64,000 nucleotides of DNA from Symbiodinium sp. CCMP2592 (lineage: Eukaryota > Sar > Dinophyceae > Suessiales > Symbiodiniaceae): NCBI GenBank assembly GCA_905221615.1, contig CAJNDT010005768.1, positions 372,001 through 436,000 on the forward strand, in the 5' to 3' direction. Positions 2,598 to 38,282 of this stretch are shown here, piece by piece. The translations under genes were made by a program, and so were the position numbers. How positions within the stretch are numbered: position 1 is the stretch's first letter; each line of letters opens with the position of its first letter. The notes beneath the pieces are model-generated. The model ran no database searches and was not told the DNA's origin. It saw nothing but the letters and a program-made list of their open reading frames with translations.

Positions 2598-2598
<1 letters not shown>

Positions 2599-2953
2599 GC
2601 TGAATCCCGAAGCACTGCCTTTGTACAGGACCATGAGTGGAGCTTGTGGTTTGCAGGACCTTGAATTGTGGCTCCGTCAAGCGGAGTTTGGCTCGAGGAG
2701 CCATGATCGACAGAAGCCAGCAAGGACGTTAAGTCTTAGCTCGTGAGCGAAAGTCGAAGTCCTAAGTTATGCACAGATGCACTTAGGAACTCACGCACTT
2801 TGTTGCTGTGCCGTAAAAAGAACGGAAGGTCGTCTCTGCCCATGGCCGTTGAGGTTCCTTCGGGGATCATCCGATAAAGTTTGGAACGATTCTTCGAAGG
2901 AGGCGTCAAGCGATGCAGGTTCCAGCTGAAGAGCCTACTCAGGGCGCTCTTCA
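2598..2953 (+). repeat. 5' LTR
   Basis: Begins TGCTGAATCC and ends CTCTTCA. It aligns end to end with 12745-13100, with two substitutions: C/T at the tenth base and A/G at 2821, just after a run of A. It contains two small hairpins around 2672-2702 and, near its end, an ATG at 2913 that opens a frame into the internal region. No standard TATA box could be asserted. Confidence 0.97.
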
Positions 2954-3122
2954 GGTCTTGAGCCCAAGCGCTCCTGCTGTGCGAGAAGGAGCTTCGAACA
3001 GAGCTGGATCTGCTAATGGGTCTGCCGAAGGGCTAGTGAACGGTGTAGCCCCTGCCGCTTCGCAGACTTTGACGCAACTTGTGAGACATGGTGCAGAGAA
3101 CGTAAGCCTTAAGCCCTTCTGA
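2913..3122 (+). CDS. leader reading frame running from the LTR into the gag region
   Basis: A 69-codon frame starts at an ATG inside the 5' LTR, crosses the LTR/internal boundary and stops at 3120-3122. The protein begins MQVPAEEPTQGALQ and is rich in Ala, Ser, Gly and Val. The next gag-like frame starts 10 bases later (3133) in a different phase. It may be the original N-terminus of Gag, cut off by an indel, or a short upstream reading frame. No tRNA-Met-like primer site is seen just after the LTR; this open frame occupies that position. Function unknown. Confidence 0.4.
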   Translation: MQVPAEEPTQGALQVLSPSAPAVREGASNRAGSANGSAEGLVNGVAPAASQTLTQLVRHGAENVSLKPF

Positions 3123-3132
3123 TCTCGAGACG

Positions 3133-3642
3133 ATGAGGGCTCTCCAGGACCAGATGGGTGGCCCAGACTTCGGTGGCCGGGCTGCTGCTGAGGACGCTGT
3201 TCAAGGGGTTGTTCAGACTGTAGTGCCTGTTCAGACGATGGACGGTGGTCAAGCTTCGATGGCTGCAGCTATGGCGTTGGAAGATGGGAGTGTTCATGCT
3301 ATGAGGGCTGATGTGGAAGTGCAGCAGGGTTCTTCTTCGTTGACAGTTGTACGCTGGATTTCGAGGTTGAACGACTTCCTGACAACTCAAGGCCAGTCTG
3401 TGTTGGGTTCGGTTGGGTTTAATACGACGCCTACTCAGGGGCCCCGACATTCAGGACTAACACAACAAGCACACACTCCTGTTACCACACCAACACGCAG
3501 TCAGCAAGCAGCAGCGGCAGCAGCGAGACACCTCTGGTGTTTTCCCCGCCGGAAGAGTTGCCGCAGGGCAAACCGCCTTGGGGCCCTGACTACACGATTC
3601 AGGAGGCTCCGTTGTTCTCTCGAGAGGCCTGGGAGCAGATGA
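3133..3642 (+). CDS. gag: Gag N-terminal segment (frame-separated)
   Basis: An open frame of up to 169 codons. The first ~95 residues look like Gag leader: acidic, Val/Gln-rich, then a segment containing VRWISRLNDFLTTQ. The last ~70 codons overlap the main frame, are Arg-rich, and are probably out of phase with the original protein. The main Gag frame is open from 3423, so the switch lies between 3423 and about 3520, where an AGC/GCA-rich stretch could favour slippage. I infer it is the N-terminal part of the same polyprotein, separated by a one-base shift. Confidence 0.55.
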   Translation: MRALQDQMGGPDFGGRAAAEDAVQGVVQTVVPVQTMDGGQASMAAAMALEDGSVHAMRADVEVQQGSSSLTVVRWISRLNDFLTTQGQSVLGSVGFNTTPTQGPRHSGLTQQAHTPVTTPTRSQQAAAAAARHLWCFPRRKSCRRANRLGALTTRFRRLRCSLERPGSR

Positions 3643-6600
3643 TGAGGTTTTCTCAGCGGGCCCCGTGGCTTTATGGTCGAGGAAGGCATTCACAGGGTGA
3701 TTCGACGACGGGGTCTTCAAAGATTCAGGCGGAGGTGCAGCGCCAGATGGAAGGCTTGATGAGAAGCCAATCACGACAGCTAGATGAGATGCGCGAAGAG
3801 CTTCAGTACCTGAGAGCTGAGAGGGCGGCGGTTGCAGATCGCTTAGCTCGGGGCGGGGACCAACGTCGTGTTCAGCATGAAGGAGACGATGGCCTTCGGC
3901 ATCAAAGTGATCCTCGTGGGGAGCGACGCCAGGTTCAGCATGAAGGAAATGATGGCCGTCGGCATCAAAGTGATCCTCGTGGTGAGCGGTATGGTCAGCA
4001 TGAAGAAGATGATGGTCGTCGGCATCAAAGTGATCCTCGTGGTGGGCGGTACGTTCAGCATGAAGAAGACGATGGTCGTCGGCATCAAAGTGATCCTCGT
4101 GGTGGGCGGTATGTTCAGCATGAAGAAGACGATGGTCGTCGGCATCAGAGTGATCCTCGTGGCGAGCGTGTTCAGCATGAAGAAGACGATGGTCGTCGGC
4201 ATCAAAGTGATCCTCGTGGTGGTACAATGTATGTGCTTAGCCAGTCAGTCGGTGGTCTACAAGTGCCTAGCCAGTCAGTTGGTGAGCTTCAGCAGAGCCG
4301 TGGCGCTGTGGTCAGTGGGGGGTTTCAGGATGTACCTCAAGGACCTCTTGGAGAACCGAAGCCAGGTGACGTAGTTGCCGACCCTGTGAGCCTTGGTGAT
4401 GAGCAGAACAGGAATGTTCGACAGAGGGTTGGTGATGGACCAGCTGGGAGTTCGTCTTTGAGAATGCCGAGTGGCCCGCCTACTGTGTATGGACCAGGGA
4501 TCACCGCTACCAGGTGTGAGACCTTAGGCAGTGGCTGCCCAGCACCATCCTCAGTGCCAGGTGTTGCGATAGCTCGGCCACCACCTTCAGGAGGCCAGCA
4601 GAACCACTCTGCCGTCACGAATGAGAAGCTTTTGGAAACGCTGGCAGAGGGCATGCAGCAGCTGCAACGGGCTCAGTTGAGCCAGATGGAGCGCGGTGAA
4701 AAGAGAAAGGAGGAAGAGGCGCCGGAACAATGCAAGCCGGGCACGGCTACACTTCCTGCTTTACCTCCTCCCAGTGGTCACGAGAGCGCTGTGTCTCTTC
4801 AGGACTGGATCGAGGTCATTGATGGCCCGCTCAAGGACATCTCGGATAGCAGTTCGTGGTGGTGGGACGCTGTGAAGGAGAGGGCGGCCGTGAGTTACCA
4901 GAAATGGGTGGCTTCGGGTCCCTATGAAAGGCTGGCTCTGAAACCGCCAACCGCGGACGACCTCGAGAAGGGCAAGTACTCACGCTTGAGTGCGAGGACG
5001 GCGGGAATGATGCTACAGGCGATGTCTGAAGTGGTCAGGACGGAGATGGTGGCGAGGGCGATAACAAGATCACCAGTGGCCCTACTGTTCCGCTTGTGCA
5101 CGATGTATCAGCCGGGCGGTGAAAGCGAGAAGGCCTACATCCTCCAGTACCTGGTCTCCCCACCCAAGGCACAGACGGCCAACGAGTTGGTGACGATCCT
5201 GCGTCAATGGGAAAGACTACTTTTGAGGGCTGACAACCTGAACATCGCGAAGCCCGATCCGTCGTTGTTGGTACGAGGCTTGAATGTTTTGGTGGCAGAG
5301 CTGTGGGCCAAGGACAAGGACGTGATGTTCAGAACGCAGTTGGTGAAGAGCAAGCTAGGGGTGGATGTTAACCCCACCTGGGAGTCAGCTCTGCAACTAC
5401 ACCAGCACTTGAGGGCCGAGTCCGAAAACTTGGTGAATGGACTGCCTACAAAGCCGACTGTCACTGAGCCCTTGAGAGACCCTAAGCTCCGACCTTTGCA
5501 GCCAAGTGGCCAGGGACAGCCGAAACCACCGACCACAAGTACTACCACTTCGACAACGACGATGCCCAGTGGTGGTGGAGCAGGTGGGGGAGAGAAAATG
5601 TGCGAGTGGTTCACGGAGCCGGGAGGGTGTCGAAGAGGAAGCTCGTGCAAGTTTGTTCATAGCTTTGAGGGCGTCTCGAAGAAGGACAGGTGCTATACGT
5701 GTGGGGCGGAGGGCCATCAGTCAAAGGCGTGTCCGACGAAGGCGGAGGGCGGTGATGCTGGGAACCCCAAGGCAAAGGCCAAACCAAAGGCAAAGAGTGT
5801 GGTTGGCACCCCGTCTTCGAAGGATGAAGCGGCGAAGACCGCACCAGCAGCGAGAGCACTGACTACAGAGCCTGAACCACCGCCGTCAGCCCCTACGTCT
5901 CCGGTGACTGGAGAAGGCGGTGGAAGTGATGTGAAGGATGCGCTACGAGATGCAGCTCAGGCGCTGAGATCGATGATGAGCTCAACGAGCTCTGGTTCGA
6001 CCTCTACGGCTAGCACCTTGGAGAGCCTTCAGAAGCAACTTGATGAACTACGATTGAAGGCCATGAAGGTGAACAAGGAGGTGGTGGAGTTGAGGAAGTC
6101 GCGGCGCACGCCTCTGGACAGCAGAGTTTTCGAAGATCTACCCACCATCCCTACCTTGATCGACTCCGGGGCCACTCACATCCTTCGGCAACCTCGTGAT
6201 GACACTGAGCTGGAGGCAGCCAAGAGGGTCTCGGTTACCCTGGCCAATGATGAACGACGTGATCTACTACAAGCTGAGTCCGGGGCGATCCTCTCAACCT
6301 CGCCTGAAACCCAGCCCATCTTGCCGATGGCAGAGCTCGTGAGTGCAGGGTGTGAAATCAGCTGGAAACGTGGAGTCTTTAAGGTGATCCACCCTGTGTG
6401 GGGTGAGTTGAGGACCTCGTTGCGCGGGGGATGCCCGGAGTTGGCGCAGGATCAGGCAGCTAAGCTGGTGAACCTCATTGAGGAAAAGAAGCTCAAGGAG
6501 TTTCAAGAAGGGGTGCACCTCTTCAAGAGCAAGCTCGAGCATCTGGTCCACGAGGAGAAGTTGCCGTGGACCACCTACGCGACGAGGTATGTGGAGGGCG

Positions 6601-7664
6601 GCTCAGCAAAGAACCTTTGGAAGGCGATGCATAGATCCTTCATGAAAGGGTTCTCAGGGACGACCCTAGATATGTTGTGTCCAGAGGTGCGTCTACATGA
6701 AGGCTGGAACACCTTGAAGGCTCTACCACTCCCGCGGCGGCTTCGGAAAAGGATGATGGAGTCCACTAGATGGGTGGTTCACCTACCTGGGCATCGGGAC
6801 GAGGCGCCGTTGAAGCCGGAGACCTATGGGAAGGACGCTGTGGTTGTGTCAATTCATGGTAGTCTACTTCCACAAGCCTACGAAGCGCTGATGTGGGGAG
6901 CTGTGACGGGAAGGATCGCAGCGATCACGGGCACCACTCCAGCGAGCTCGGGTGGTACCGAAGCTCAGGCAGTGAGGCTGGCCCGGGCACTTCTGTTGTA
7001 CGTGGTTGGGAGACTCGCGAGACCTACAGGAAGAACGGGGTTTTTCTGGACCAAGCCAGCTCGTGTGAGTGGTGGTGAGGTTGTTGATCTCTTGAAGGAG
7101 TTCAGGAGAGCGGCGTCGATGGAGGAGATCGAGTTTGAGCAAGGCGCATGGGGCGGTGGAACGAGGAGACCTACGGTGGCTATCACGAACTACGACCTGG
7201 ACTTCTTGCGGAAGGACTACCGTGCTGAGGAGGGGAGTGCGGAAGCCAGTGGGGCTGAGTGGCCTATGGCTATGAAGCATGCCCTCGCAAGGACGATTGG
7301 AGGGGACCGCTTCAAGTTCCAGACGGTACGCGACGAAGGTGTTCTCAAGGCGATGAGTCCCGAACAGTGGAGGGAACACGTCAAGGCGGGCCACTATCCT
7401 TCGCGAAGAGACTGCCTTCAGTGCGTTGCTCATGGAGCCACGGGACATCGGCACGCTCGAGTTGAGTACCCAACGCTGTTTTGTCTCAATGTCGACATCA
7501 CGGGACCTTTCAGGACCACCGGAGAAGACCCGGGAGCTCGGGGAGATCGCTCCAAGGCCGCAAGGATGAAGTACCTGCTGGTGGCAAAGTTTACGCTTCC
7601 CAAGTCTTATGTCACGGGTGAGTTTGAACCTAGCCGAGGTCGGTTGCAAGGACCTGTTCGATGA
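3423..7664 (+). CDS. gag-pol: Gag-protease-integrase(N) polyprotein segment
   Basis: The frame is open from just after the stop at 3420-3422; residues here are counted from the codon at 3537. In order: a Glu/Arg-rich helical region; six ~20-residue tandem repeats (residues ~112-230); a capsid-like region (~419-640) starting near SLQDWIEVIDGPLKD; a CCCH finger beginning C689; a CCHC knuckle C719-x2-C-x4-H-x4-C; the aspartic protease motif LIDSGATH with D876; an integrase zinc-binding segment with H1281, H1286, C1293 and C1296; and the first catalytic Asp of the integrase core, D1320, in NVDITGPF. The frame ends inside the integrase core, which continues at 7609 in another phase. Gag packages RNA in cytoplasmic particles and protease matures the polyprotein. 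The 3537 codon is GTG and is not proposed as the true start. Confidence 0.9.
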   Translation, partial: YDAYSGAPTFRTNTTSTHSCYHTNTQSASSSGSSETPLVFSPPEELPQGKPPWGPDYTIQEAPLFSREAWEQMMRFSQRAPWLYGRGRHSQGDSTTGSSKIQAEVQRQMEGLMRSQSRQLDEMREELQYLRAERAAVADRLARGGDQRRVQHEGDDGLRHQSDPRGERRQVQHEGNDGRRHQSDPRGERYGQHEEDDGRRHQSDPRGGRYVQHEEDDGRRHQSDPRGGRYVQHEEDDGRRHQSDPRGERVQHEEDDGRRHQSDPRGGTMYVLSQSVGGLQVPSQSVGELQQSRGAVVSGGFQDVPQGPLGEPKPGDVVADPVSLGDEQNRNVRQRVGDGPAGSSSLRMPSGPPTVYGPGITATRCETLGSGCPAPSSVPGVAIARPPPSGGQQNHSAVTNEKLLETLAEGMQQLQRAQLSQMERGEKRKEEEAPEQCKPGTATLPALPPPSGHESAVSLQDWIEVIDGPLKDISDSSSWWWDAVKERAAVSYQKWVASGPYERLALKPPTADDLEKGKYSRLSARTAGMMLQAMSEVVRTEMVARAITRSPVALLFRLCTMYQPGGESEKAYILQYLVSPPKAQTANELVTILRQWERLLLRADNLNIAKPDPSLLVRGLNVLVAELWAKDKDVMFRTQLVKSKLGVDVNPTWESALQLHQHLRAESENLVNGLPTKPTVTEPLRDPKLRPLQPSGQGQPKPPTTSTTTSTTTMPSGGGAGGGEKMCEWFTEPGGCRRGSSCKFVHSFEGVSKKDRCYTCGAEGHQSKACPTKAEGGDAGNPKAKAKPKAKSVVGTPSSKDEAAKTAPAARALTTEPEPPPSAPTSPVTGEGGGSDVKDALRDAAQALRSMMSSTSSGSTSTASTLESLQKQLDELRLKAMKVNKEVVELRKSRRTPLDSRVFEDLPTIPTLIDSGATHILRQPRDDTELEAAKRVSVTLANDERRDLLQAESGAILSTSPETQPILPMAELVSAGCEISWKRGVFKVIHPVWGELRTSLRGGCPELAQDQAAKLVNLIEEKKLKEFQEGVHLFKSKLEHLVHEEKLPWTTYATRYVEGGSAKNLWKAMHRSFMKGFSGTTLDMLCPEVRLHEGWNTLKALPLPRRLRKRMMESTRWVVHLPGHRDEAPLKPETYGKDAVVVSIHGSLLPQAYEALMWGAVTGRIAAITGTTPASSGGTEAQAVRLARALLLYVVGRLARPTGRTGFFWTKPARVSGGEVVDLLKEFRRAASMEEIEFEQGAWGGGTRRPTVAITNYDLDFLRKDYRAEEGSAEASGAEWPMAMKHALARTIGGDRFKFQTVRDEGVLKAMSPEQWREHVKAGHYPSRRDCLQCVAHGATGHRHARVEYPTLFCLNVDITGPFRTTGEDPGARGDRSKAARMKYLLVAKFTLPKSYVTGEFEPSRGRLQGPVR
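3868..4225 (+). repeat. in-frame minisatellite in gag (about 60-bp units)
   Basis: Six units sharing AGTGATCCTCGTGG, at 3906, 3969, 4029, 4089, 4149 and 4206, so spacings are 63, 60, 60, 60 and 57. All spacings are multiples of three and the Gag frame stays open. Each unit encodes a charged segment like QHEEDDGRRHQSDPRGG. Confidence 0.95.
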
Positions 7665-10600
7665 GGACCCGAGTGGAAGAGCTCCGCTACCAGAGGTTCC
7701 AACTGACTGTGAAGAGTACGAGCCTTCGGAGTTGGGTGATGATGAGGGTGATGATGGAGCTGGTGTGGGACCCATACCAATGGATGTGAAGCCTCCAGAG
7801 TCAACGTACCTACTCCTTGCGGAGCCACTCCTTAACGACAAGGGGCCTACGGTGGCCTCTGCCATCCAGTCAATCGTCCTCTACCTCCAGAGCTTGAATG
7901 TGCCGGCGCTTCGGTTCCATTCCGACCGAGCCGCTCAGCTGATGACACGGTCTTTGACAATGTGGCTTCATGGCCAAGCCATCCGGACTTCTACGAGCAC
8001 GCCTGGTGTTCCTCAGGAGAATGGCGCGGCCGAGTGTGCGGTGAAGGAGGTGAAGCTCACTACAAGGAAGATACTATCCTCTTCTACTCTTGACAGGACT
8101 TTCTGGCCTGTGGCGGCAAAGGCAGCAGCTTCAATGCAAAGGGCACGGGTTCTACGACAAGTACCAAGGATGGCCGCTGCTATTGGAGCCAAAGTTCTGG
8201 TGAAGAAGCGAAGGTATGCAGCTTCAGGTGCTTTGATCCGGATGGAGTTTGATGAGCGCTGGGCCGAAGGTGTTTATCTGGGTCTGTCAGACCAGGTGAA
8301 TGATGGACATTTGGTCTATGTAGATGGGATCTTCACCCATACCAAGAATGCGGAGGACCAGGCCAACTTGATTGATGCTGGAGAACACCGTGGAGATGGA
8401 GAACTCCGTTTGGGCGGTGAAGGACGTGAGCACCCTGAAGCAGGGAGTCCGCCAGCTACAAGAAGGAAGATTGTTGGAAAGTCCGCACCTAGGATGGCGG
8501 TGTTTGGCGATGGGGAGCCCACCTATGATGACGACCTGGAGAGCGACAAGGGAGAAATGTCAGATCTCGAGGATGAGTTTGTCGAGGAAGATGGTGCCAA
8601 CCCACGGTGCGAACCTCGTGTTGCGGTTCTTGGAGCGGACCAAGGCGGAAGCTTTGGAGGACTTGTTTGTGATGATGGAGAAGTCCTGGACCCGGAGGAC
8701 TACGCGAGGGAGATCTTGTATGAGGATGAGGACATTGATGAGAAGGTCATTCAGCGACTGTTTGATCTACTACCGAACCAGAAGTTCTCAAGGGAGACTC
8801 GGGAGCCAGATGGTGGAGGTGGAAGTCAGAAGGCCTGGGGATCTGGAGCGTTCCGACATGGTGGAGTGCTGGGATTGAGGAACTCTACAAGGAGGTTTCC
8901 CTACTCAACCAGGGTGATCAACCAGTATATCCGAAGAAAGTTGGGTACGTCTACGACCTGGTCGACCTTCTCCATTCACAAGAACCTCAACGTGAAGAGG
9001 CACCGGGACTCCCACAACGCGAGGGATCAATGTTCTCGTTTGATCCCTATCACCGACTTCAAGCAGGGCGGCCTTTGGACCCAGGTGATGCCTTCCGAAC
9101 ATGTGTGCGAGAGCGATGTTGTTGAGATTGATGGGAAACAAGGCCGTGTGCTTCCGTTGTTTTCCGAGGAGGGGGAGAGGAAGGTGGTTTCCTTTGATTC
9201 CCGTCAGTGGCACGCTACGATGCCATGGCAAGGAGAACGAGTGGTTTTGGCGGTCTATACGGTCCGTGGTCTCAACAAGATTTCGCAGGCGGATGAGGAC
9301 CTGGCGCTGGATTTGGGTTTCCCTCTACCGCTGAATGTGGAGGACGAGCCAAGGATGTGTAAGTGTAAGATGCTCCAAGGCGAAGGCGGGGAACAAGTTG
9401 AAATGGACTTGGAGCTGGAGACGACTGAGTCTGTGATGCACATCAGGATGTCCGAGGAAGAATGGGAAACTACGAGCGCTAGGTATGGTGTGGACCACTA
9501 CATCCCCGAGATGGCAACGAGATGGCGATTGGTTCAGCCAGTTGATGGAGATTTGAACTCAGTGATCCCAGCGGCTATTGTGGCAGATCTTGGAAGAGAC
9601 TGGGCTGAACATCCCAGGATCTATTTGGAATCTGAGGAGGGCGAGGAGCTTCAAGTTGGAAGGTTCCTGGCGCTGAGATCCTACCGAGTGCCCAACTACG
9701 ATCCGGATGGGAGGGATGCGAGCTTCATCAAGGCTTTCAAGATACGCAATGACGTGATGAACATCGAGGAGGTGATTGTTTTGTGGATCCACCGGCGGGT
9801 TATTGTACGAAGAGCACCAAGGGATGATCCTGCAAGGGACCGTGGAGGACCAGGACCACCCGAGAGCCCAGATCCGCGGCCGGACAACTACGACCATCGA
9901 AGGGTGATGCCACGAGTCGCCATGATGAAGGTTGAGGAGCCTGAGACGTTGATGTGGTTCGTCGAGGTTTCTGAAGACGAGCTTGCCGAGGAGGGGGAGG
10001 CCCGAATGATGAAGGCCACCCAAGATACCTTGTATACGCCCAACATCGAGGACCTCCTTTCGAAGGTAAGCGTTGGCAACCCTCTCAAGGTGACCCACAC
10101 AGTTGATCCTCGAGAAGTGTTACCAGTGGTGGACAAGTGGGTGCCAGCCATGAAGGCTGAACTCAACTCGCTGGAGCAGATGCCAGCGATCAAGAAGTAC
10201 CGTGGCACCGAGGCCGCGGCGCTGAGGAGAGATCCAAATGTGATCATCGTTCCCAGCAAGCTGGTTTTTACTGTCAAACCCAGCGGGACGCCGGGTGAAT
10301 TTCGCCGCAAGGTGCGCGGCGTGGCTTGTGGAAACTTCTCTGGAGAGACTGCGGAGGAGTTGGGTGACATCTACTCGGCTGGGGCAACGATAGACCTAGT
10401 GAGGCTATGTCTGGCGGAGAAGAATGCCCACCGAGACTGGATCGCCGTGACCGACGACATCAAGACAGCCTTCCTCAGAGCCCCGATCCCGGAGATGCCA
10501 AATGGACGGAGGTACGCCATGGAGGCGCCACGTGCAATGGTGAGAGCGCAGCTCGCCGAGCCAGGCGAGTTATGGCTTGCCACAGCAGCCGTCTATGGCT

Positions 10601-11496
10601 TTCAACGGAGTCCTCGTTGGTGGTCTGAACATAGAAATCAGACCGTGCGGAAGGCTACGTGGAAGTCGAAGACCGGGCGCAGTGTGAAGGTGATCGCATG
10701 CGTGACGGATGAGAACTTGCACAAGCTTGTTGAGGTCCAGGAGGATGGGACTGAGAAGGTTGTGGGCTATGTCCTATTCTACGTCGACGACAAGTTGGCG
10801 GTGGGACCCCCGGAGTTTGTCCATGGCTTCTACGACTGGTTGGAGTCCACTTGGGAAACTAGTGGCCGGGAGGAGGTTACGAGGGACTCCGTGGTTCGGT
10901 TTTTGGGCCTGGAGCTGTCAGTTGAGCCGGATGGGAGAATGAAGATCGCGCAGCGGGGCTATGTTGATGAGCTCTTGAGGCGCCGTGAGGTCACGACCTT
11001 CAGCAAGGTCCCGTTCCTTAAGGAATGGGCCGCAGAGGAGATCCCGGTGGACGCCGACAAGAGCCCAGCACTGGTGAAGGAGGCCCAACAACGGTGCGGT
11101 GAAATCTTGTGGACCACCCAGCGCACAAGGCCAGATGCTAGCTACGCTGCTATGATGATGGCGAGACTGCCCACCAGGTGGCCAGAACGGGCGATTCAGA
11201 TTTCCAAGAAGATTTTGTCCTACTACAATGCCACGCGAGATGCGGGTTTTGTCGTGGAGCGGGATCAGCCTGGGAACCTGGTGATGTTCAGCGACGCGTC
11301 GCATTCTCCATCGGGATCAAAGTCCGTCTCTGGAACATTGATATTGTGGAGAGGCCTTCCGATATCATGGAGGGCGGCAAACCAAGGACTGACGGCCCTG
11401 AGCAGCGCTGAAGCAGAGCTTATTGCCTTGAGCGAAGGAGCTCAGTTGATGAGAGCGGTGAAGACTACTCTTTCCGATCGGAGGCATCTGAAATGA
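7609..11496 (+). CDS. pol: Integrase(C)-dioxygenase-like-reverse transcriptase-RNase H polyprotein segment
   Basis: Residues are counted from 7609, an ATG that is probably internal. The integrase core continues with D106 (FHSDRAAQ) and E142 (PQENGAAE), giving D,D35E spacing. An acidic linker (~270-410) follows, then a dioxygenase-like domain (~420-560), then a second linker. The Copia reverse transcriptase spans ~833-1140, with D949/D950 in TDDIKTAFL and the catalytic FYVDDK (Y1058-D1061). RNase H starts near 1165 with D1229 (FSDASHSPSG) and E1268 (SSAEAELIAL). The frame stops at 11494-11496 within RNase H, and the rest of that domain is in the frame beginning at 11493, which overlaps as ATGA. 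All key catalytic residues visible here are intact. The product copies element RNA into DNA and integrates it. Confidence 0.93.
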   Translation: MSRVSLNLAEVGCKDLFDEDPSGRAPLPEVPTDCEEYEPSELGDDEGDDGAGVGPIPMDVKPPESTYLLLAEPLLNDKGPTVASAIQSIVLYLQSLNVPALRFHSDRAAQLMTRSLTMWLHGQAIRTSTSTPGVPQENGAAECAVKEVKLTTRKILSSSTLDRTFWPVAAKAAASMQRARVLRQVPRMAAAIGAKVLVKKRRYAASGALIRMEFDERWAEGVYLGLSDQVNDGHLVYVDGIFTHTKNAEDQANLIDAGEHRGDGELRLGGEGREHPEAGSPPATRRKIVGKSAPRMAVFGDGEPTYDDDLESDKGEMSDLEDEFVEEDGANPRCEPRVAVLGADQGGSFGGLVCDDGEVLDPEDYAREILYEDEDIDEKVIQRLFDLLPNQKFSRETREPDGGGGSQKAWGSGAFRHGGVLGLRNSTRRFPYSTRVINQYIRRKLGTSTTWSTFSIHKNLNVKRHRDSHNARDQCSRLIPITDFKQGGLWTQVMPSEHVCESDVVEIDGKQGRVLPLFSEEGERKVVSFDSRQWHATMPWQGERVVLAVYTVRGLNKISQADEDLALDLGFPLPLNVEDEPRMCKCKMLQGEGGEQVEMDLELETTESVMHIRMSEEEWETTSARYGVDHYIPEMATRWRLVQPVDGDLNSVIPAAIVADLGRDWAEHPRIYLESEEGEELQVGRFLALRSYRVPNYDPDGRDASFIKAFKIRNDVMNIEEVIVLWIHRRVIVRRAPRDDPARDRGGPGPPESPDPRPDNYDHRRVMPRVAMMKVEEPETLMWFVEVSEDELAEEGEARMMKATQDTLYTPNIEDLLSKVSVGNPLKVTHTVDPREVLPVVDKWVPAMKAELNSLEQMPAIKKYRGTEAAALRRDPNVIIVPSKLVFTVKPSGTPGEFRRKVRGVACGNFSGETAEELGDIYSAGATIDLVRLCLAEKNAHRDWIAVTDDIKTAFLRAPIPEMPNGRRYAMEAPRAMVRAQLAEPGELWLATAAVYGFQRSPRWWSEHRNQTVRKATWKSKTGRSVKVIACVTDENLHKLVEVQEDGTEKVVGYVLFYVDDKLAVGPPEFVHGFYDWLESTWETSGREEVTRDSVVRFLGLELSVEPDGRMKIAQRGYVDELLRRREVTTFSKVPFLKEWAAEEIPVDADKSPALVKEAQQRCGEILWTTQRTRPDASYAAMMMARLPTRWPERAIQISKKILSYYNATRDAGFVVERDQPGNLVMFSDASHSPSGSKSVSGTLILWRGLPISWRAANQGLTALSSAEAELIALSEGAQLMRAVKTTLSDRRHLK
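8870..9290 (+). other. 2OG-Fe(II) dioxygenase-like (TET/JBP-type) domain inside pol
   Basis: Within the pol frame, residues ~420-560 carry the double-stranded beta-helix dioxygenase signature. FSIHKNLNVKRHRDSHN places an H-x-D iron-binding pair at H465/D467, followed by N470. A GGLW turn follows. Then comes DSRQWHATMPWQGERVVLAVY, split here as DSRQWHATMP (distal iron ligand H535) and ERVVLAVY (R544, the 2-oxoglutarate-binding Arg). The H-to-H spacing is 70 residues and H-to-Arg is 9, within the usual range. The pattern T-x-S-I-x2-N before H-x-D-x2-N resembles TET/JBP hydroxylases of 5-methylcytosine or thymine. A standard Copia polyprotein has nothing comparable between integrase and reverse transcriptase. 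The family match is from motif recognition only; substrate and activity are unknown. Confidence 0.7.
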
Positions 11497-12674
11497 GGGT
11501 TGATGCAACGGCTGCTATAGCGGTTGCTAGCTCAGGTGGGAGCTGGAGAACCCGACACCTTCGACTTCGGGAAAACTGGCTGGTGGAATTGGTGAACTCC
11601 GACGAGTACCAGTTGAAGCACCAACCGGGTGTGGAACAGCTTGCGGATGGTTTGACTAAGCAGTTGGCCTCACGTGCTTGGAAGTTGCTTGAAGAGTGGG
11701 GGTTCTACCGTGGAAGTGGCTCTGCTGACCTCAAGAAGATCACGTTTGAGGACAATGAGGTGATGTTTGGAGCCACAGCAGCAAAAGCATCACAAGCCGC
11801 AACGGCAGCATCAGATACCGCAGCCAAAGCATCACAAGCCACAGCGGCAGCATCTGATAACATAGCCAGAGCATCACAAGCCGCCACAGCAGCATCACAG
11901 ATCACAGCAGCAACAGCCCTGAATGAAGGTGTCCTGAGTAGGTGTACCCAGGTTCTACTAGGTCTAGGGTTGCTGGCTGGTGTAACTGGCGAGAATGTGG
12001 AGGAAGTTCAAGCCTACACAGGTGTGGATTCTGAGTACGAGCTTTGGATTGCAGTTCTGTTCGTTATGATCACCACCATTTTTGTGTGGGAGTGGAGCAA
12101 GCGTGCTGCGGGAGGTGTCAAGAAGGCTGTGAGATTGAAGATGTTGTCGGCGAAACCAAAGCCGAAACTCTCAAAGAGCGAGGGCAAGGAGCTTTTAGCT
12201 TTACTGGGAGTTGACGAGAGATCGATTGAACAGGAGGCTAGACTGTCTGCGCTGATTGAGAAGTTCCGTGCAGGGGATACAAGTTTGCCGAGCGAGCCTG
12301 AAGCTGGAAGGGTGTCAGTTTTGGGTGCCGAAGCTCGGGGAAGGACTTCTACGTCGTCTTCTATGTTCTCGAGGCCAACGGTTCAGAGTCGGGAAAGGTT
12401 TCAGCCCGAAAAGTGGAGCAGAGCAGTCCAGACGGACCCTGAGATCCCGCCGGATGTGCCAACGCGTGCCATACATTCGTCTGCGGTTGATGCCAGGATC
12501 CGTTATATCGTGCAGCCGTGGGAGGGCGACATGTATGTGAGCCCCAATGGTGACCGAGTGCACGTGAAGCCCGACTGCCACGGACTTCGGAATGCTTCGA
12601 GGGCTGTGAGGAAGCCTGCGTGTCAGTATTGCCTGAACGACTGGAGGAATCATCCTGACAATACCCGAGGATGA
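11493..12674 (+). CDS. pol: RNase H C-terminus fused to a membrane-anchored Cys/His tail
   Basis: Residues 1-75 complete RNase H: D4 in RVDATAAIA, and the Copia-typical HQPGVEQLADGLTKQL with D52. Then follows a ~320-residue extension. It has an Ala-rich stretch with 3-4 imperfect 15-residue repeats (AAKASQAATAASD type, ~95-140); a short hydrophobic segment (~151-164); a clear membrane span (ELWIAVLFVMITTIFVWEW, ~183-201) followed by basic residues; a Lys-rich and then helical region (~205-260); a Ser/Pro-rich linker; and a C-terminal cluster H357-x4-C362, C377-x2-C380. The tail is not part of canonical Copia pol. Its position and membrane span recall env-like genes of some plant Copia elements, but I see no homology to them. 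The start codon is probably not real; a shift joins it to the preceding frame. Confidence 0.8.
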   Translation: MRVDATAAIAVASSGGSWRTRHLRLRENWLVELVNSDEYQLKHQPGVEQLADGLTKQLASRAWKLLEEWGFYRGSGSADLKKITFEDNEVMFGATAAKASQAATAASDTAAKASQATAAASDNIARASQAATAASQITAATALNEGVLSRCTQVLLGLGLLAGVTGENVEEVQAYTGVDSEYELWIAVLFVMITTIFVWEWSKRAAGGVKKAVRLKMLSAKPKPKLSKSEGKELLALLGVDERSIEQEARLSALIEKFRAGDTSLPSEPEAGRVSVLGAEARGRTSTSSSMFSRPTVQSRERFQPEKWSRAVQTDPEIPPDVPTRAIHSSAVDARIRYIVQPWEGDMYVSPNGDRVHVKPDCHGLRNASRAVRKPACQYCLNDWRNHPDNTRG

Positions 12675-12735
12675 GATTCTGGAAGTGCTTCAGGTGACAC
12701 GAAGGAATGATGATGGCAGCCTTACCGGGCGCATC

Positions 12736-12744
12736 AAGGAGGGG
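12736..12744 (+). other. polypurine tract
   Basis: AAGGAGGGG lies immediately before the TG of the 3' LTR, the expected primer site for plus-strand DNA synthesis. Confidence 0.85.
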
Positions 12745-13100
12745 TGCTGAATCCTGAAGCACTGCCTTTGTACAGGACCATGAGTGGAGCTTGTGGTTTG
12801 CAGGACCTTGAATTGTGGCTCCGTCAAGCGGAGTTTGGCTCGAGGAGCCATGATCGACAGAAGCCAGCAAGGACGTTAAGTCTTAGCTCGTGAGCGAAAG
12901 TCGAAGTCCTAAGTTATGCACAGATGCACTTAGGAACTCACGCACTTTGTTGCTGTGCCGTAAAAAGGACGGAAGGTCGTCTCTGCCCATGGCCGTTGAG
13001 GTTCCTTCGGGGATCATCCGATAAAGTTTGGAACGATTCTTCGAAGGAGGCGTCAAGCGATGCAGGTTCCAGCTGAAGAGCCTACTCAGGGCGCTCTTCA
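12745..13100 (+). repeat. 3' LTR
   Basis: A 356-bp copy of the 5' LTR with TG/CA ends and two substitutions. It ends directly against the microsatellite. Its copy of the ATG (13060) opens a frame that runs into the microsatellite and would encode poly-Leu; this is an insertion-site accident, not a gene. Confidence 0.97.
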
Positions 13101-13105
13101 ACTGC
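13101..13105 (+). repeat. right target-site duplication (actgc)
   Basis: Partner of 2593-2597 with one mismatch, at the edge of the trinucleotide repeat. Confidence 0.5.
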
Positions 13106-13152
13106 TACTACTACTACTACTACCACTACTACTACTACTACTACTACGACTA

Positions 13153-13233
<81 letters not shown>

Positions 13234-13236
13234 CTG

Positions 13237-13310
<74 letters not shown>

Positions 13311-13323
13311 GCTACTGCTATAA
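13103..13323. repeat. (CTA)n microsatellite, right flank of the retrotransposon
   Basis: About 220 bases of CTA trinucleotides, with occasional CCA, CGA, CCT and CTG variants. It resumes the repeat interrupted at 2597. The long open frames on both strands (poly-Tyr/poly-Leu, poly-Ser/poly-Val) are produced by the repeat. Confidence 0.95.
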
Positions 13324-28959: not shown

Positions 28960-31900
28960 TCCAGAAGCGATGTAGATACTGTCTAGCAATCCCTTTACCT
29001 TTACCCTAACAGGACATTTTGGTTGGCAAACCCCTAACCCTAAAAGCAGGTCGCAAACGGCAAGCCCCAACATCCAAACGAGGAAGTAACTGGTTCCCCA
29101 ACAGGACACGTTGGTTGGCAAACCCCTAACCCTAAAAGAAGATCCTGGGTGGCAAACTCCAAACTGGCAAACCCTGCCCTAGATCCTAACAGGACATGTT
29201 TGTTAACAACCCTCTTGCCGAAAGCCTAACATCAGCTCGTCCTTGGCAAACCCCAAACCCTGAGCGAACAAGATAGTGGTTGGCAAACTGGCAAACCCGA
29301 GGAGATGTTGAAACCCTGAAGCAAGAAGACATTGATGGGCAAAAAGCAAACATCCCTGAACCTTACTTAGAAATGTTGGCTGGCAGACCCCATACCTTGA
29401 AGGAAGCTCTTGAGAACAAACCCCAAACCCCTTTTTCAGCAATCATGGTCAAGCTGGCAAGGTACATTGGTCGGCGAACCCTAAACACTAAAACGAAAAG
29501 GTCGGATAAACCACAACAAAGTGGCACGGGGTCCAACCTCAAGCCCTAATCAAGAAACGTTGTTGTTTGTCAAACCCTAAAACCCCAAACGCGACGTTAC
29601 GACGTTGGTTGACAAAGCCCTAACCCCATTGGAAGGTCGGGGCTAAACGACGAAGATGTTGGCCGGCAAACCCTGGACTTTACTGGGACACGTTGGTTGC
29701 AAACCCCTAACCCTAAACGAGAACCGCGGGTGGACCTGTCTGGAAAACGATTGCTTCCCTCCCCAGCCCGAAACCTGTCGATGCACAAACGAATGCAACC
29801 TCTATCACGGGGTCACACACAATCGCAAGCGTCACGGTAATCCTTTCTGGTCCTTTCTGAAACCCAAAACCTAAAAGAGGAAGTAGGTTAAACACAAATG
29901 GAACTTGGTGGCTTGCAAACCTCACATCCTAAAAAATATCGTGTGTGGCAAATTGGCAAACCCAAGCCCCAAAAGACGAAGGCACTGGTCGGCAAACCCG
30001 AAACCCTACAAGGAGATGTTGGCAAACCCCAAACCCGAAAAGCAAATCGCAGCTGGCGCGCCTGGCAATTCCAAGAGAAGATCGTAGCTGGAAAATTCCA
30101 AACCCTGTACGATGGGGATAGTGACCGGCAATCCCTTTACCCTAGCAGGACATGTTGGTTGGCCAATCCCTACTCCTAGAAGCAGATGCGGGGTGGCAAA
30201 CACCAAACCCGCAGCTAAGAGGATATGGGCTGGAAAACCTTAGATCCCAACACAACATGTTTGTCGGCACGCCCCCAGCCGTAAGCATAACATCAGCTCG
30301 TCCTTGGCAACCCCGAACCCTACACGAAGAAGATACTGGCTGGCAAGCCACAGCTGTTGGTTGGCAAACCAGAAAGCTCCAACAGGAGAGTTTGGTCAGC
30401 AAGATCGAACCCTGAAGGAATAAGACATTGATGGGCAAACGGTAAGCATCCCGAAACCTTACTTGGCAAACCCCAAAACCCTGAATGAAGATCTTGAGAA
30501 TAAACCCCAAACCCCGTTTTCAACAGTCATGGTCAGCAACCCCTAGAAAGAGGATCGCGGGAACAAACCTCAAACCCCTGTATTGGTTGGCGAACCCTGC
30601 ACACTAAGAGATCATGTCGGATAAACCAAAACAAAGTGGCGCGGGGTCCAACCCTCAAGCCCTAATCAAGAAAAGTTGTTGCTTGGCAAACCCTAAAACC
30701 CAAAACGCGACGTTACGACGTTGGTTGACAAAGCCCTAACCCCATCGGAAGGTCGGGGGCTAAACGACGAAGATGTGGGCTGACAAACCCTGGACTTTAC
30801 TGGGACACGCTGGTTGGTAAACTCCTTACCCTCAACGAAGACCGCGGGTGGACCTTTCTGGAAAACGATTGCCCCCCCGCCCCCCCCAAATCCGCAAGAC
30901 CTGTCCGTGCACAAACAACTACAAGCTCTATCATGGGGTCACACACAAACGCGAGCCCCACGATAATAGCCCTTCCTGGTCCTTTCTGAAACCCAAACCC
31001 GAAAAGAAGAGGCTTGCAAACCTCAAACTCAAACCCTAAAACATATCGTGTATGGCAAACCCAAACCCCGAAAGACGAAGGCACTGGTCGGTAAACCCGA
31101 AACCCTACAAGGAGATGTTGGCAAAGCCCAAACCCCAAAAGCAAATCGCGGCTGGCATACCCCCAATCGAACCCAAAACGAAGAAGATACTGGTTGGCAA
31201 ACCACAGCTGTGGGCTGGCAAACCCGAAAACCCCAAGAGGAGACGTTGGTCAGCAAGATCAAACCCTGAAGGAAGAAGACATTGATGGGCAAACGGTAAA
31301 CATCCCGGAACCTTACTTTCAGAAGTTGCTTGGCAAACCCCAAAACCCTGAAAGCAGATCTTGAGAACAAACCACAAACTCCTTTTTAACAGTCATGGTC
31401 AGCAACCGCTGAACCTCAAACGAGGACATGTCGGCTGGCAAAGTCCAGTCACTGAAAGACGATCGCGGGAACAAACCTCCAACCCCTGAAATCAAACTCA
31501 GGTATTGGTTGGCGAACCCTGAATGCTAAGAGAACATGCCGGATAAACCACAACAAAGTAGCACGGGGTCCAACCTCAAGCCCTAATCAAGAAACGATGT
31601 TGTTTGGCAAACCCAAAAGCCCCAAACGCTCCGTTACGACGTTGGTTGACAAAGCCCTAACCCCATCGGAAGGTCGGGGGCTAAACGGCTGAACCATGAA
31701 GATGTGGGCTGGCAAACCCTGGACTTTACTGGGACACGTTGGTTGGCAAACTCCTTAACCTCAACAAAGACCGCGGGTGGACCTTTCTGGAAAACGATTG
31801 CCCCTCGCCCCCCCCAAATCCGCAAGACCTGTCCGTGCACAAACAACTACAAGCTCTATCATGGGGTCACACACAAACGCGAGCCCCACGATAATAGCCC

Positions 31901-34900
31901 TTCCTGGTCCTTTCTGAAACCCAAACCCGAAAAGAAGAAGAGATAAGCTCCCTAAACCCAAATGGAACCCGGTGGCTTGCAAACCTCAAACCCTAAAACA
32001 TATCGTGTGGCAAACCCAAACCCCGAAAGACGCAGGCACTGGTCAATTAACCCGGAACCCTACAACGAGATGTTGGCAAAGCCCAAAGCCCAAAAGCAAA
32101 TCGCGGCTAGCATACCCCCAATCGAACCCAAAACGAAGAAGATACTGGTTGGCAAACCACAGCTGTGGGCTGGCAAACCCGAAAACCCCAAGAGGAGATG
32201 TTGGTCAGCAAGATCAAACCCTGAAGGGAGAAGACATTGATGGGCAAACGGTAAGCATCCCGGAACCTTCCTTGCAGAAGTTGCTTGGCAAACCCCAAAA
32301 CCCTGAAAGAAGATCTTGAGAACAAACCACAAACTCCTTTTTAACAGTCATGGTCAGCAACCCCTGAACCTCAAACGAGGACATGTCGGCTGGCAAAGTC
32401 CAGTCACTGAAAGAAGATCGCGGGAGCAAACCTCAAACCCCCAAAATCCAACTCAGATATTGGTTGGCGAACACTGAATGCTAAGAGAACATGCCGGATA
32501 AACCACAACAAAGTAGCGCGGGGTCCAACCTCAAGCCCTAATCAAGAAACGCTGTTGTTTGACAAACCCTACGGCTAAACCATGAAGATGTGGGCTGACA
32601 AACCCTGGACTTTAGTGAGACAGGCTGGATGGCAAACTCCTGACCCTGAAGGAAGACCGCGGGTGTACCTTTCTGGAAAACGATTGCCCCCCCCGCCCCC
32701 ACCCCCCCCCCGCCCCCGCCCCCCCGAAACCACAAAACCTGTCCGTGCAAAAAAAACTGCAAGCGATATCATGGGGTCACACACAAACGCGAGCCCCACG
32801 ATAATAGCCCTTCCTGGTCCTTTCTGAAACCCAAACCCGAAAAGAAGAGGCTTGTAAACCTCAAACCCTAAAACATATCGTGTGTGGCAAACCCAAACCC
32901 CGAAAGACAAAGGAACTGGTCGCTAAACCCGAAACCCTACAAGGAGATGTTGGCAAAGCCCAAGCCCCAAAAGCAAATCGCGGCTGGCACACCCCCAATC
33001 GAACCCAAAACGAAAAAAATACTGGTTGGCAAACCACAGCTGTGGGCTGGCAAACCCGAAAACCCCAAAAGGAGACGTTGGTCAGCAAGATCAAACCCTG
33101 AAGGGAAAAGACATTGATGGACAAACGGTAAGCATCCCGGAACCTTACTTGCAGAAGTTGCTTGGCAAACCCCAAAACCCTGAAAGAAGATCTTGAGAAC
33201 AAACACAAACCCCTTTTTAACAGTCATGGTCAGCAACCCCTGAACCTCAAAGGAGGACATGTCGGCTGGCAAAGTCCAGTCACTGAAAGACGATCGCGAG
33301 AGCAAACCTCAAACCCCCAAAATCAAACTCAGATATTGGTTGGCGAACCCTGAATGCTAAGAGAACATGCCGGATAAACCACAACAAAGTAGCACGGGGT
33401 CCAACCTCAAGCCCTAATCAAGAAACGATGTTGTTTGGCAAACCCAAAAGCCCCAAACGCGCCGTTACGACGTTGGTTGACAAAGCCCTAACCCCATCGG
33501 AAGGTCGGGGGCTAAACGGCTGAACCATGAAGATGTGGGCTGACAAACCCTGGACTTTAGTGAGACAGGCTGGATGGCAAACTCCTAACCCTGAAGGAAG
33601 ACCGCGGGTGTACCTTTCTGGAAAACGATTGCTCCCCCGCCCCCCCGAAACCGCAAAACTGTCCGTGCATAAACAACTGCAAGCTCTATCATGGGGTCAC
33701 ACACAAACGCGAGCCCCACGATAATAGCCCTTCCTGGTCCTTTCTGAAACCCAAACCCGAAAAGAAGAAGAGATAAGCTCAACAAACCCAAATGGAACCC
33801 GGTGGCTTGCAAACCTCAAACCCTAAAACATATCGTGTGTGGCAAACCCAAACCCCGAAAGACAAAGGAACTGGTCGCTAAACCCGAAACCCTACAAGGA
33901 GATGTTGGCAAAGCCCAAGCCCCAAAAGCAAATCGCGGCTGGCATACCCCCAATCGAACCCAAAACGAAGAAGATACTGGTTGGCAAACCACAGCTGTGG
34001 GCTGGCAAACCCGAAAACCCCAAGAGGAGATGTTGGTCAGCAAGATCAAACCCTGAAGGGAGAAGACATTGATGGGCAAACGGTAAGCATCCCGGAACCT
34101 TCCTTGCAGAAGTTGCTTGGCAAACCCCAAAACCCTGAAAGAAGATCTTGAGAACAAACACAAACCCCTTTTTAACAGTCATGGTCAGCAACCCCTGAAC
34201 CTCAAAGGAGGACATGTCGGCTGGCAAAGTCCAGTCACTGAAAGAAGATCGCGGGAGCAAACCTCAAACCCCCAAAATCAAACTCAGATATTGGTTGGCG
34301 AACCCTGTATGCTAAGAGAACATGTCGGATAAACCACAACAAAGTAGCACGGGGTCCAACCTCAAGCCCTAATCAAGAAACGTTGTTGTTCGGCAGACCC
34401 TAAAACCCCAAATGCGACGTTACGACGTTGCTTGACAAAGATCGCGGGCTAAACCATGAAGATGTGGGCTGACAAACCCTGGACTTTAGTGAGACAGGCT
34501 GGATGGCAAAGTCCTAACCCTGAAGGAAGACCGCGGGTGTACCGTTCTGAAAAACGATTGCCCCCCCGCCCCCGCCCCCACCCCCCCCCCGCCCCCGCCC
34601 GCCCGAAACCGCAAGACCTGTCCGTGCACAAACAACTACAAGCTCTATCATGGGGTCACACACAAACGCGAGCCCCACGATAATAGCCCTTCCTGGTCCT
34701 TTCTGAAACCCAAACCCCAAAAAAAAAGGGTTGCAACTTGCAAACCTCAAACCCTAAAACATATCGTGTACGGCAAACCCAAACCCCGAAAGACGAAGGC
34801 ACTGGTCGGTTAACCCGCAACCCTACAAGGAGATGTAGCAAATCGCGGCTGGCACACCCCCAATCGAACCCTAAACGAAGAAGATACTGGTTGGCAAACC

Positions 34901-37900
34901 ACAGCTGTTGGTTGGCAAACCCGAAAACCCCAAGAGGAGATGTTGGTCAGCAAGATAAAACCCTGAAGGGAAAAGACATTGATGGACAAACGGTAAGCAT
35001 CCCGGAACCTTACTTGCAGAAGTTGCTTGGCAAACCCCAAAACCCTGAAAGAAGATCTTGAGAACAAACACAAACCCCTTTTTAACAGTCATGGTCAGCA
35101 ACCCCTGAACCTCAAAGGAGGACATGTCGGCTGGCAAAGTCCAGTCATTGAAAGAAGATCGCGGGAGCAAACCTCAAACCCCCAAAATCAAACTCAGATA
35201 TTGTTTGGCGAACCCTGTATGCTAAGAGAACATGTCGGATAAACCACAACAAAGTAGCACGGGGTCCAACCTCAAGCCCTAATCAAGAAACGTTGTTGTT
35301 CGGCAAACCCTAAAACCCCAAACGCGACGTTACGACGTTGGTTGACAAAGATCGCGGGCTAAACCATGAAGATGTCTGACAAACCCTGGACTTTAGTTAG
35401 ACAGGATGGCAAACTCCTAACCCTGAAGGAAGACCGCGGGTGTACCTTTCTGGAAAACGATTGCTCCCCCGCCCCCCCGAAACCGCAAAACTGTCCGTGC
35501 ATAAACAACTGCAAGCTCTATCATTGGGTCACACACAAACGCGAGCCCCACGATAATAGCCCTTCCTGGTCCTTTCTGAAACCCAAACCCCAAAAAAAGG
35601 GTTGCAACTTGCAAACCTCAAACCCTAAAACACACCGTGTGGCAAACCCAAACCCCGAAAGACAACAAAGGCACTGGTCGGTTAACCCGCAACCCTAAAA
35701 GCAACTCGCGGCTGGCACACCCCCAATCGAACCCTAAACGAAGAAGATACTGTTTGGCAAACCACAGCTGTTGGTTGGCAAACCCGAAAACCCCAAGAGG
35801 AGACATTGGTCAGCAAGATCAAACCCTGAAGGGAGAAGACATTGATGGGCAAACGGTAAACATCTCGGAACCTTTCTTGCAAAAGTTGCTTGGCAAACCC
35901 CGAAACTCTGAAAGAAGATCTTGAGAATAAACCCCAAACCCCTTAAACAGTCATGGCCAGCAACCCCAAAACCTTAAAAGAGTAGATGTCGGCTGGCAAA
36001 GTTCAAACACTCAAAGAAGATCGTGGGAGCAAACCTCAAACCCCCAAAATCAAACTCAGGTATTGGTTGGCGAACCCTGAATGCTAAGAGAACATGCCGG
36101 ATAAACCACAACAAAGTAGCACGGGGTCCAACCTCAAGCCCTAATCAAGAAACGTTGTTGTTCGGCAAACCCTGAAACCCCAAACGCGACGTTACGACGT
36201 TGGTTGACAAAGCCGTAAACCTATCAGAAGATCGTGGGCTAAACCATGAAGATGTGGGCTGACAAACCCTGGACTTTAGTGAGACAGGCTGGATGGCAAA
36301 CTCCTAGCCCTGAAGGAAGACCGCGGGTGTACCTTTCTGAAAAACGATTATCTTTCGGCCCCCCCCCCCCCCCCCCCCCGCCCCGCCCCGCCCCACCGAA
36401 ACCGCAAAACCTGTCCGTCCACAAACAAATGCAAGCTCTATCATCGGGTCACACACAAACGCAGGCCCCACGAGAATCCTTTCTGGTCCTTCCTGAAACC
36501 CAAACCCTAAAAGAAGAGGCTTGCAACTTGCAAACCTCAAACCCTAAAACATATCGTGTGGCAAACCCAAACCCCGAAAGACAACAAAGGCACTGGTCGG
36601 TAAACCCGAAACCCTACAAGGAGATGTTGGCAAAGCCCAAACCCCAAAAGCAAATCGCCGCTGGCACACCCCCAATCGAACCCTAAACGAAGAAGATACT
36701 GGTTGGCAAACCACAGCTGTTGGTAGGCAAACCCGAAAACCCCAAGAGGAGATGCTGATCTGCAAGATCAAAACCTGAAGGAAGAAGACGTATGGGCAAA
36801 CGGTAATCATCCCTGAACTTCGCTTGCAGATGTTGCCTGGCAAACCCCAAACAATGAAAGAACATCTGGAGAACAAACCCCTTTCTCAACAGTCAGTCGG
36901 CAGGCCTTAAATTGAAGGGACGACCCCCAAATCGAAACATCCCCAAACCCTAAACGAAAAAGTTATTGATTGGCAAACCCTTAACCCTAACAGTACAGGG
37001 CATGTTGGTTGGCAAACCCTGACCCTAAAACAAAAGTTGTGTGTGGAACACCCCAAACCCTAAAATACGAAACCATCGGTAGCCAGACCCTAAACCCCAA
37101 AACCAAATGTTGGTTAGCAAACCCCCCAGACCCCAAAAGACGATCTTGGATGGCAAACTTCACACCTGAAACACGTCTGGTTGGCAAACCCTAAACTCTC
37201 AAAATCAAATGATGGTTGGTAAATCTCCAACCCCAAAACAAAAGGACCGCGGACCGCGGGCAGCAATCCCCAAACACCCTGCGAAGAAGATGTGGGTAGG
37301 TTCGCAAAGCCCGAGCCCTGAAGAGGAGCATGGGCAAAGAAGAAGATACTTGCAGCCTGAACCGTAACAGGACCTGTTGGTTGACAGAGTATTAACCCGA
37401 CAAGGAAGGCACGGGCAAACCCCAAAACCTAAGATCTTGCCTGACATACGATTGAACCCTAAAGTGCATGACACTCAACGAAGAGTATGTTGGCTGGCAA
37501 ACCTGATCCCAAAAAAAATTGGGTTCGCAAAGCCTAGGCCCCAAACCAAGATGTTTGCAAACCCCAAGTATTGCCTGGCAAACCCCGCACGCTGAAAAAA
37601 CTCTTTGGTTGGCAAACCCTAGACCCTGCACATGCTGGCTGGAAAAGCCTTCGCCCTAACGTGGGCAATCCAGCTTAACAGAAAAGAAAAAACAAACAGA
37701 TATTGGCAGGCAAACCCAAGAGCCCACAAGGACATGTTGGTTCGCGAAGCATGAGCTCCAAAAGAGGACCAGGGCAAACCCCCAACAGCCCCAAACCCTA
37801 AAGAAGATGTTGGCAGGCAAACCTTAAACTCTCAAAGGACATGTCGGTTGGCGAAGCATGAGCTCTAAAAGAGGAGCACGCCCAAACCCCAAACCATAAA

Positions 37901-38150: not shown

Positions 38151-38194
38151 GTACGGCTCTGCGAGGGTGGGCACATCAGAGTGAAAGAAGTGAC

Positions 38195-38198
38195 CAAG

Positions 38199-38236
<38 letters not shown>

Positions 38237-38240
38237 GCAC

Positions 38241-38282
<42 letters not shown>

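Follow-up and report, generated by a model that had tools for sequence, protein, structure and literature searches.

A conserved, probably active TET/JBP-like dioxygenase domain within the Pol of a dinoflagellate Copia retrotransposon

A Copia element with an oxygenase-like domain in Pol

We analysed a window of 64,000 nucleotides from the dinoflagellate Symbiodinium sp. CCMP2592 (contig CAJNDT010005768.1, positions 372,001 to 436,000), in which a long terminal repeat (LTR) retrotransposon at positions 2598-13100 constitutes a 10.5-kb Copia element. Within its Pol lies a conserved domain that is probably an active TET/JBP-like Fe(II)/2-oxoglutarate (2OG) dioxygenase acting on nucleic acid of the element (Table 1). 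As in other Ty1/Copia elements, LTRs surround gag-pol and the integrase, recognised by alignment, lies 5' of a reverse transcriptase (RT) of the RVT_2 type. An earlier note, made from the letters of the sequence, had placed such a domain between the integrase and RT of a Copia element, a description that the LTRs, the RVT_2 match and the domain order bear out.

The domain is longer than the interval first proposed, 8870..9290, which falls inside it; it extends over approximately 8722-9339, and the related protein P0034 aligns to window positions 8725-9321. Every residue named at the outset is present in the plus-strand frame, namely the T-F-S-I-H-K-N segment, H478-R-D480 (9001-9009) and the GGLW turn at residues 500-503. 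The distal histidine is H548 of WHATMP (9211-9213), 70 residues past H478, with R557 (9238-9240) nine residues further on.

The earlier note had also described the surrounding frame as open. This is true of the domain and the parts next to it; further out, the window copy contains two frame breaks, at approximately 7570-7664 in the integrase and 11412-11496 in RNase H, despite 99.4% identity between its LTRs. These breaks may reflect mutation, assembly error or frameshifting, and the first looks specific to this copy, since predicted proteins P0001 and P0003 read through it.

Table 1. Coordinates of the Copia element, its open reading frames (ORFs) and the oxygenase-like domain in the window
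Feature	Position	Strand	Details
5' LTR	2598..2953	+	356 bp; 99.4% identical (2 mismatches) to 12745-13100; TG...CA ends
ORF1 (stop to stop)	3423..7664	+	gag with zinc knuckle, DSGA protease-like motif, integrase start
ORF2 (stop to stop)	7570..11496	+	Integrase end, oxygenase domain, RT, RNase H start; from alignment to Symbiodinium polyproteins
TET/JBP-like 2OG-Fe(II) oxygenase domain	8722..9339	+	ORF2 residues 385-590; from predicted fold and homologues
HRDSHN	9001..9018	+	Predicted metal ligands H478 and D480; N483, three residues past the metal-binding Asp (D+3), at the place of TET2 Asn1387; alignment to TET2 HRDLHN weak
GGLW turn (G500, G501, L502, W503)	9067..9078	+	
WHATMPWQGER	9208..9240	+	Predicted distal metal ligand H548; R557 is the expected 2OG-binding Arg
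Reverse transcriptase (RVT_2)	10246..10998	+	ORF2 residues 893-1143; RVT_2 E 2e-9
ORF3 (stop to stop)	11412..12674	+	Remaining RNase H (GGSWRTRHLRLR) in another frame, then tail; by eye against L044
3' LTR	12745..13100	+	Preceded by purine-rich stretch AAGGAGGGG, followed by ACT microsatellite

Conservation and predicted fold

The earlier note had proposed that the HxD, His and Arg residues be followed in related elements, that dN/dS (nonsynonymous over synonymous substitution rates) should lie below 1 and that the fold should be a double-stranded beta-helix. Searching the 1.098-Gb assembly of the same genome (5383 contigs) yielded 5126 first-look candidates for the domain; the best-scoring 150 were scored, and all 150 match. 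Sixty of these places formed the conservation set, giving 66 rows and 55 distinct strings, in which 16 of 158 well-filled columns are at least 95% conserved, including H478, D480, N483, H548 and R557. Because some strings differ solely at their ends, we recounted on the core (residues 456-566), which left 49 distinct cores. H478, D480 and N483 are kept in 49/49 and H548 and R557 in 48/49, the exception being L014; G500 and W503 are likewise kept in all 49, and G501 in 46 of the 55 strings. Where identity to the window is 40% or less, the cores retain HxD, the distal His, the Arg and the Asn at D+3 without exception (37/37 distinct cores; 42/42 rows before removal of duplicates).

Among proteins, the region gave ten matches at E ≤ 0.001, six of them annotated under Symbiodinium with names like GIP or unnamed product, and a profile search returned 23 at E ≤ 0.01, including P0022 (38% identity), which led to P0034-P0038. 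Alignment A5, in which the window is joined by 19 sequences that share 25-37% identity with it, has invariant columns at G42, G51, H94, D96, N99, G116, W119, G141, F158, H164, W169, G171, R173 and F200, with H94, D96, N99, H164 and R173 corresponding to H478, D480, N483, H548 and R557. Between the window and its relatives, identity is 58-74% in the domain core, 55-90% in the integrase tail and 80-81% in the RT; it is 40-58% in the linker preceding the domain, falling to 24-35% in the last 17 residues of that linker. At the search sensitivities used, no relatives were found in viral contigs, bacterial and archaeal genome contigs or phages.

The domain is under purifying selection. In the window's clade the median dN/dS is 0.122 (range 0.05-0.30) at a median dS of 0.49, from 36 pairs among nine copies; this set left out L008 and L009, which are identical to L007, and the partial copies L012 and L013. 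We claim no ratio for other clades because their dS is mostly high or saturated.

An AlphaFold2 model built from 19 sequences was confident, with a predicted local distance difference test score (pLDDT) of 86.6 and a predicted template modelling score (pTM) of 0.85. A model from 11 near-identical sequences (alignment A2) reached a pLDDT of 34.9 and was discarded. When the confident model is compared with the PDB, its best fold matches belong to the TET and AlkB groups of 2OG-Fe(II) dioxygenases, with TET2, NgTet1 and CcTet among the top. The predicted fold is of the 2OG oxygenase class, and we consider it almost certain that the domain adopts it. The two refuting outcomes named in the earlier note, another fold and related elements that drop HxD, His and Arg while keeping the rest of the region, were not borne out.

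We also considered that the motif arose by chance in a polyprotein spacer. Shuffling the 181-residue domain 2000 times reproduced the HxD..H..R pattern in 28 cases, and 2000 shuffles of the whole ORF2 did so in 114, so that the bare motif is weak evidence; it is more than chance because it is conserved among relatives. With homologues at 25-37% identity keeping it, a confident 2OG fold and a dN/dS of about 0.12, we rejected this explanation as vanishingly improbable.

Class and candidate substrate

Known TET/JBP enzymes (TET2, NgTet1, CMD1 and CcTet) resemble the domain in their 2OG-Fe(II) fold and HxD..H triad, and TET2 further shares HRDxHN with Asn at D+3. The residue at D+3 is reported to hydrogen-bond N4 of 5-methylcytosine (5mC) in TET2 (Asn1387), NgTet1 (Asp234) and CMD1 (Asp350), with Gly in its place in CcTet (PMC11040006, PMC7854593). 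In our set, the metal triad HxD (or HxE)...H of TET/JBP enzymes is present in all 37 divergent cores, and D+3, Asn or Asp in that group, is Asn in 49/49 cores. TET/JBP enzymes have a second base-contact pair, an aromatic residue plus His or Arg, towards the C-terminal side of their core; here an aromatic residue and R566 (43/49 cores) lie in that neighbourhood and are candidates for it. Among Pfam families Tet_JBP is matched most often, at weak scores: 12/38 sequences (best E 0.0018) and 9/20 in a smaller set, with E values of 0.012 for P0022, 0.013 for P0034 and 0.068 for L037, and of 0.0043 and 0.00067 for the P0022-type and mixed-domain consensus sequences. Other matches of 2OG type were 2OG-FeII_Oxy_5 (1/38), 2OG-FeII_Oxy_3 (2/11) and Asp_Arg_Hydrox (1/11), and P0014 matched 2OG-FeII_Oxy_3.

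Several results weigh against the TET/JBP-like assignment or against an intact enzyme in every copy. The 34.9-bit cut-off of Tet_JBP was not reached by P0022 (15.3), P0034 (15.2), L037 (12.8) or the consensus sequences (16.7 and 19.4); the best E in the sets of 20 and 38, 0.0018, falls between the E values of those two consensus sequences. Neither the window's own sequence nor a Copia-only consensus gave any Pfam match to the domain. Asp_Arg_Hydrox matched weakly in 4/38 sequences. The only PDB sequence matches of the A5 profile were CcTet and TET2, at E 1.2-1.8, and a larger profile, A6, lost both and gave two unrelated chains; we do not take these matches as proof. A comparison of A5 with alignment A4 carries no weight either, because the two have their first sequence in common. 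Searching PDB sequences with the window, A2, P0035 or A3 as query, and scanning seven proteins against NCBIfam, returned no relevant match. By VIA structure comparison, TET, AlkB, FTO and ALKBH5 structures are tied within about 1 Z, the top two rows being a Burkholderia 2OG oxygenase (6n1f, 11.2) and NMAD-1 (10.8). Damaged copies also occur, with HRN for HRD in P0016, no Asn in P0014, HxD deleted in P0029 and H548 and R557 missing from L014; decayed copies are under-counted, because sampling started from the 150 top-scoring places among 5126 candidates.

By fold, as modelled, the TET and AlkB groups are indistinguishable: the best 38 Foldseek chains include 19 of AlkB type and 17 of TET type. 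An AlkB/ALKBH5/FTO-like demethylase would remove N-methyl groups (m6A, m1A, m3C) from RNA or DNA of the element, comparable to the orchid Gypsy elements discussed below. The residues lean the other way. The AlkB family carries an R-x5-R signature past the distal His, which occurs in only 1 of 42 divergent rows, whereas the Asn at D+3 is a TET-type base contact. The AlkB Pfam family was absent from every set scanned at E ≤ 10, a threshold at which HMMER filters drop most weak matches, and a methyltransferase-like domain adjoins some relatives. We regard an AlkB-type activity as unlikely and favour a TET/JBP type, on matches that are weak, as the probable assignment; because the Tet_JBP matches fall below cut-off, we use the label TET/JBP-like and leave the domain outside the family proper.

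Alternatively, the fold could have been kept for a protein substrate or for nucleic-acid binding only, for instance in an integration or particle-assembly module. The Asp_Arg_Hydrox matches, weak matches to Cupin_2 (3/38) and the top VIA row 6n1f, a 2OG oxygenase of unstated function, fit such a role. The metal and 2OG residues kept in 37/37 divergent cores would be needless in a binding module, and TET- or AlkB-type enzymes make up 36 of the 38 best Foldseek matches. On this evidence we hold the alternative to be distinctly improbable, and nucleic acid to be very probably the substrate.

Which base would be oxidised is less firmly indicated; we hold 5mC or thymine to be somewhat more likely than not. 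A special case of the TET/JBP-like reading is a JBP-like thymine hydroxylase, with which the elements would help to make the 5-hydroxymethyluracil (5hmU) typical of dinoflagellate DNA, which is reported to replace at least 12% of thymine in the species cited and to be enriched in most Breviolum repeats, some LINEs excepted (PMC11071213). The TET/JBP-type fold and residues are compatible with it, and O4 of thymine could in principle be met by an Asn at D+3, as discussed for CMD1 D350N; that mutant, however, is reported to have given no thymine product (PMC7854593), and if the methyltransferase-like neighbour of some relatives is a C5 enzyme, it would make cytosine the better fit. Thymine hydroxylation is a tentative proposal that we hold to be less likely than not.

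Carrier elements and proposed role

Since its LTRs differ by only two mismatches, the insertion in the window appears young. It sits inside a trinucleotide microsatellite, and its flanks, compared for a target-site duplication (ACTAC and ACTGC), are equal at four of five positions. In ORF1 the zinc knuckle was matched by zf-CCHC (Pfam, E 7.3e-5, residues 756-771), and the DSGA motif and integrase start were assigned by reading of the sequence and alignment. The gag region contains 5.9 copies of a 60-bp tandem repeat (3869-4221), encoding a repeated charged unit of 20 residues, and ORF2 residues 601-760 (9370-9849), between the oxygenase and the RT, show 44-71% identity across elements. Elsewhere in the window we observed the ACT microsatellite adjoining the 3' LTR (13101-13320), a 300-nt sequence present eight times at a spacing of 854-955 bp within a longer repeat array (30196-36858), and a 107-bp tandem repeat with an AGCAGC array (37698-38405).

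The domain is carried by more than one kind of element. Pfam or PHROGs scans of 13 genome frames gave a retroelement or integrase match in nine, RVT_2 lying above the Pfam cut-off and rve (integrase) below it. The order integrase-oxygenase-RT is found in the window, L044 and L036, the latter two with rve below cut-off and RVT_2, and the order oxygenase-integrase-RT in L048, L038 and L045. Partial versions of the second order are an integrase without an RT match in L046, an RT without an integrase match in L049, and a zinc knuckle, oxygenase and integrase in L037. A single frame of L042 (2366-6886) encodes an oxygenase, a methyltransferase-like domain (phrog_757, 0.031) and an integrase-like domain (phrog_1, 9.9e-7), and in proteins from short ENA contigs the oxygenase is followed by phrog_757 (P0035, 8.4e-6; P0038, 0.0011; P0034, 0.055). 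These four, P0034, P0035, P0038 and L042, are candidate methylate-and-oxidise polyproteins. The methyltransferase reading comes from a single profile, phrog_757, which points to it in these four and was not found in L030, L040, L041 or L043. L030 and L041 resemble L042 by eye and gave no Pfam or PHROGs match, nor did L043 and L040; Pfam DNA_methylase had no match in P0034, P0035, P0038, L041, L043 or L030. Read by eye and with no family match, L034, L040 and L043 have a different domain order: a methyltransferase-like motif (EIFARRASLCG and similar) precedes the oxygenase, which is followed by an RT/RNase H-like stretch.

A tree built from 36 domains separates, at one branch (100/99), the oxygenase-before-integrase group plus two rows of unscanned type from the rest; domains of the integrase-oxygenase-RT type appear in two places, among the methyltransferase-bearing ones. 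The order within the tree is unsure because several branches are long. The two positions in Pol imply repeated capture of the domain, a move, or a shift of place inside Pol. Capture of an enzyme by the element, as first proposed, understates the case, which involves a large family in more than one kind of element rather than one capture.

Related associations have been described. A 2025 fungal survey reports TET/JBP enzymes on DNA transposons and Helitrons (Kyakuja, Zisupton, hAT7, EnSpm, Harbinger, Helitron and others) and no retrotransposon with one (PMC12730594). These fungal carriers are likewise mobile elements with a TET/JBP-type dioxygenase, but here the domain resides in LTR/Copia and methyltransferase-bearing frames of a dinoflagellate, inside a retrotransposon polyprotein and with Pfam matches under cut-off, unlike the known TET/JBP enzymes. 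Orchid Ty3/Gypsy elements of 25 kb are LTR retrotransposons that also carry a 2OG-Fe(II) dioxygenase (PMC9289625); theirs is reported to be an AlkB domain in an additional ORF, whereas ours is TET-like and within the Copia Pol frame. In dinoflagellates, the retrotransposons SymbioLINE-Dnmt and SymbioDIRS-Dnmt3 also encode a DNA base-modifying enzyme, a DNA methyltransferase (DNMT), and Copia elements are said to lack a DNMT domain (PMC5890265); the enzyme here is an oxygenase, partly beside a methyltransferase-like domain. The words 'dioxygenase', 'TET' and 'JBP' do not occur in the main text of that paper, and among the matches listed from openly licensed literature (titles and abstract openings) we found no description of a TET/JBP-type enzyme in a dinoflagellate retrotransposon.

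We propose that, with Fe(II), O2 and 2OG, the Pol-embedded oxygenase would hydroxylate a pyrimidine at its 5-methyl group (5mC, perhaps also thymine) in nucleic acid of the element, most likely its cDNA or a freshly inserted copy. Oxidation could offset methylation by the host or the element, or write a protective hydroxymethyl mark on the element's own DNA. A possible benefit would be to offset methylation-linked silencing or hypermutation, an advantage also speculated for fungal TET transposons (PMC12730594). Some members of the family may couple methylation to oxidation, as the frames with a DNA-methyltransferase-like neighbour suggest; a methylate-then-oxidise couple is the simplest reading of those frames.

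A TET-like oxygenase in a Copia Pol, under purifying selection, with thousands of first-look candidates and some methyltransferase-like neighbours, would point to an element-encoded write-and-oxidise system. More speculatively, the retroelements of this genome may share a large, mobile oxygenase family that has passed between methyltransferase-like-bearing elements and Copia elements, where it occupies two positions in Pol, and that may write 5-hydroxymethylcytosine or 5hmU into retrotransposon DNA, in which case part of the hydroxymethylated bases of dinoflagellates would be retroelement-derived. For the oxidised bases found in dinoflagellates, the family offers concrete enzyme candidates.
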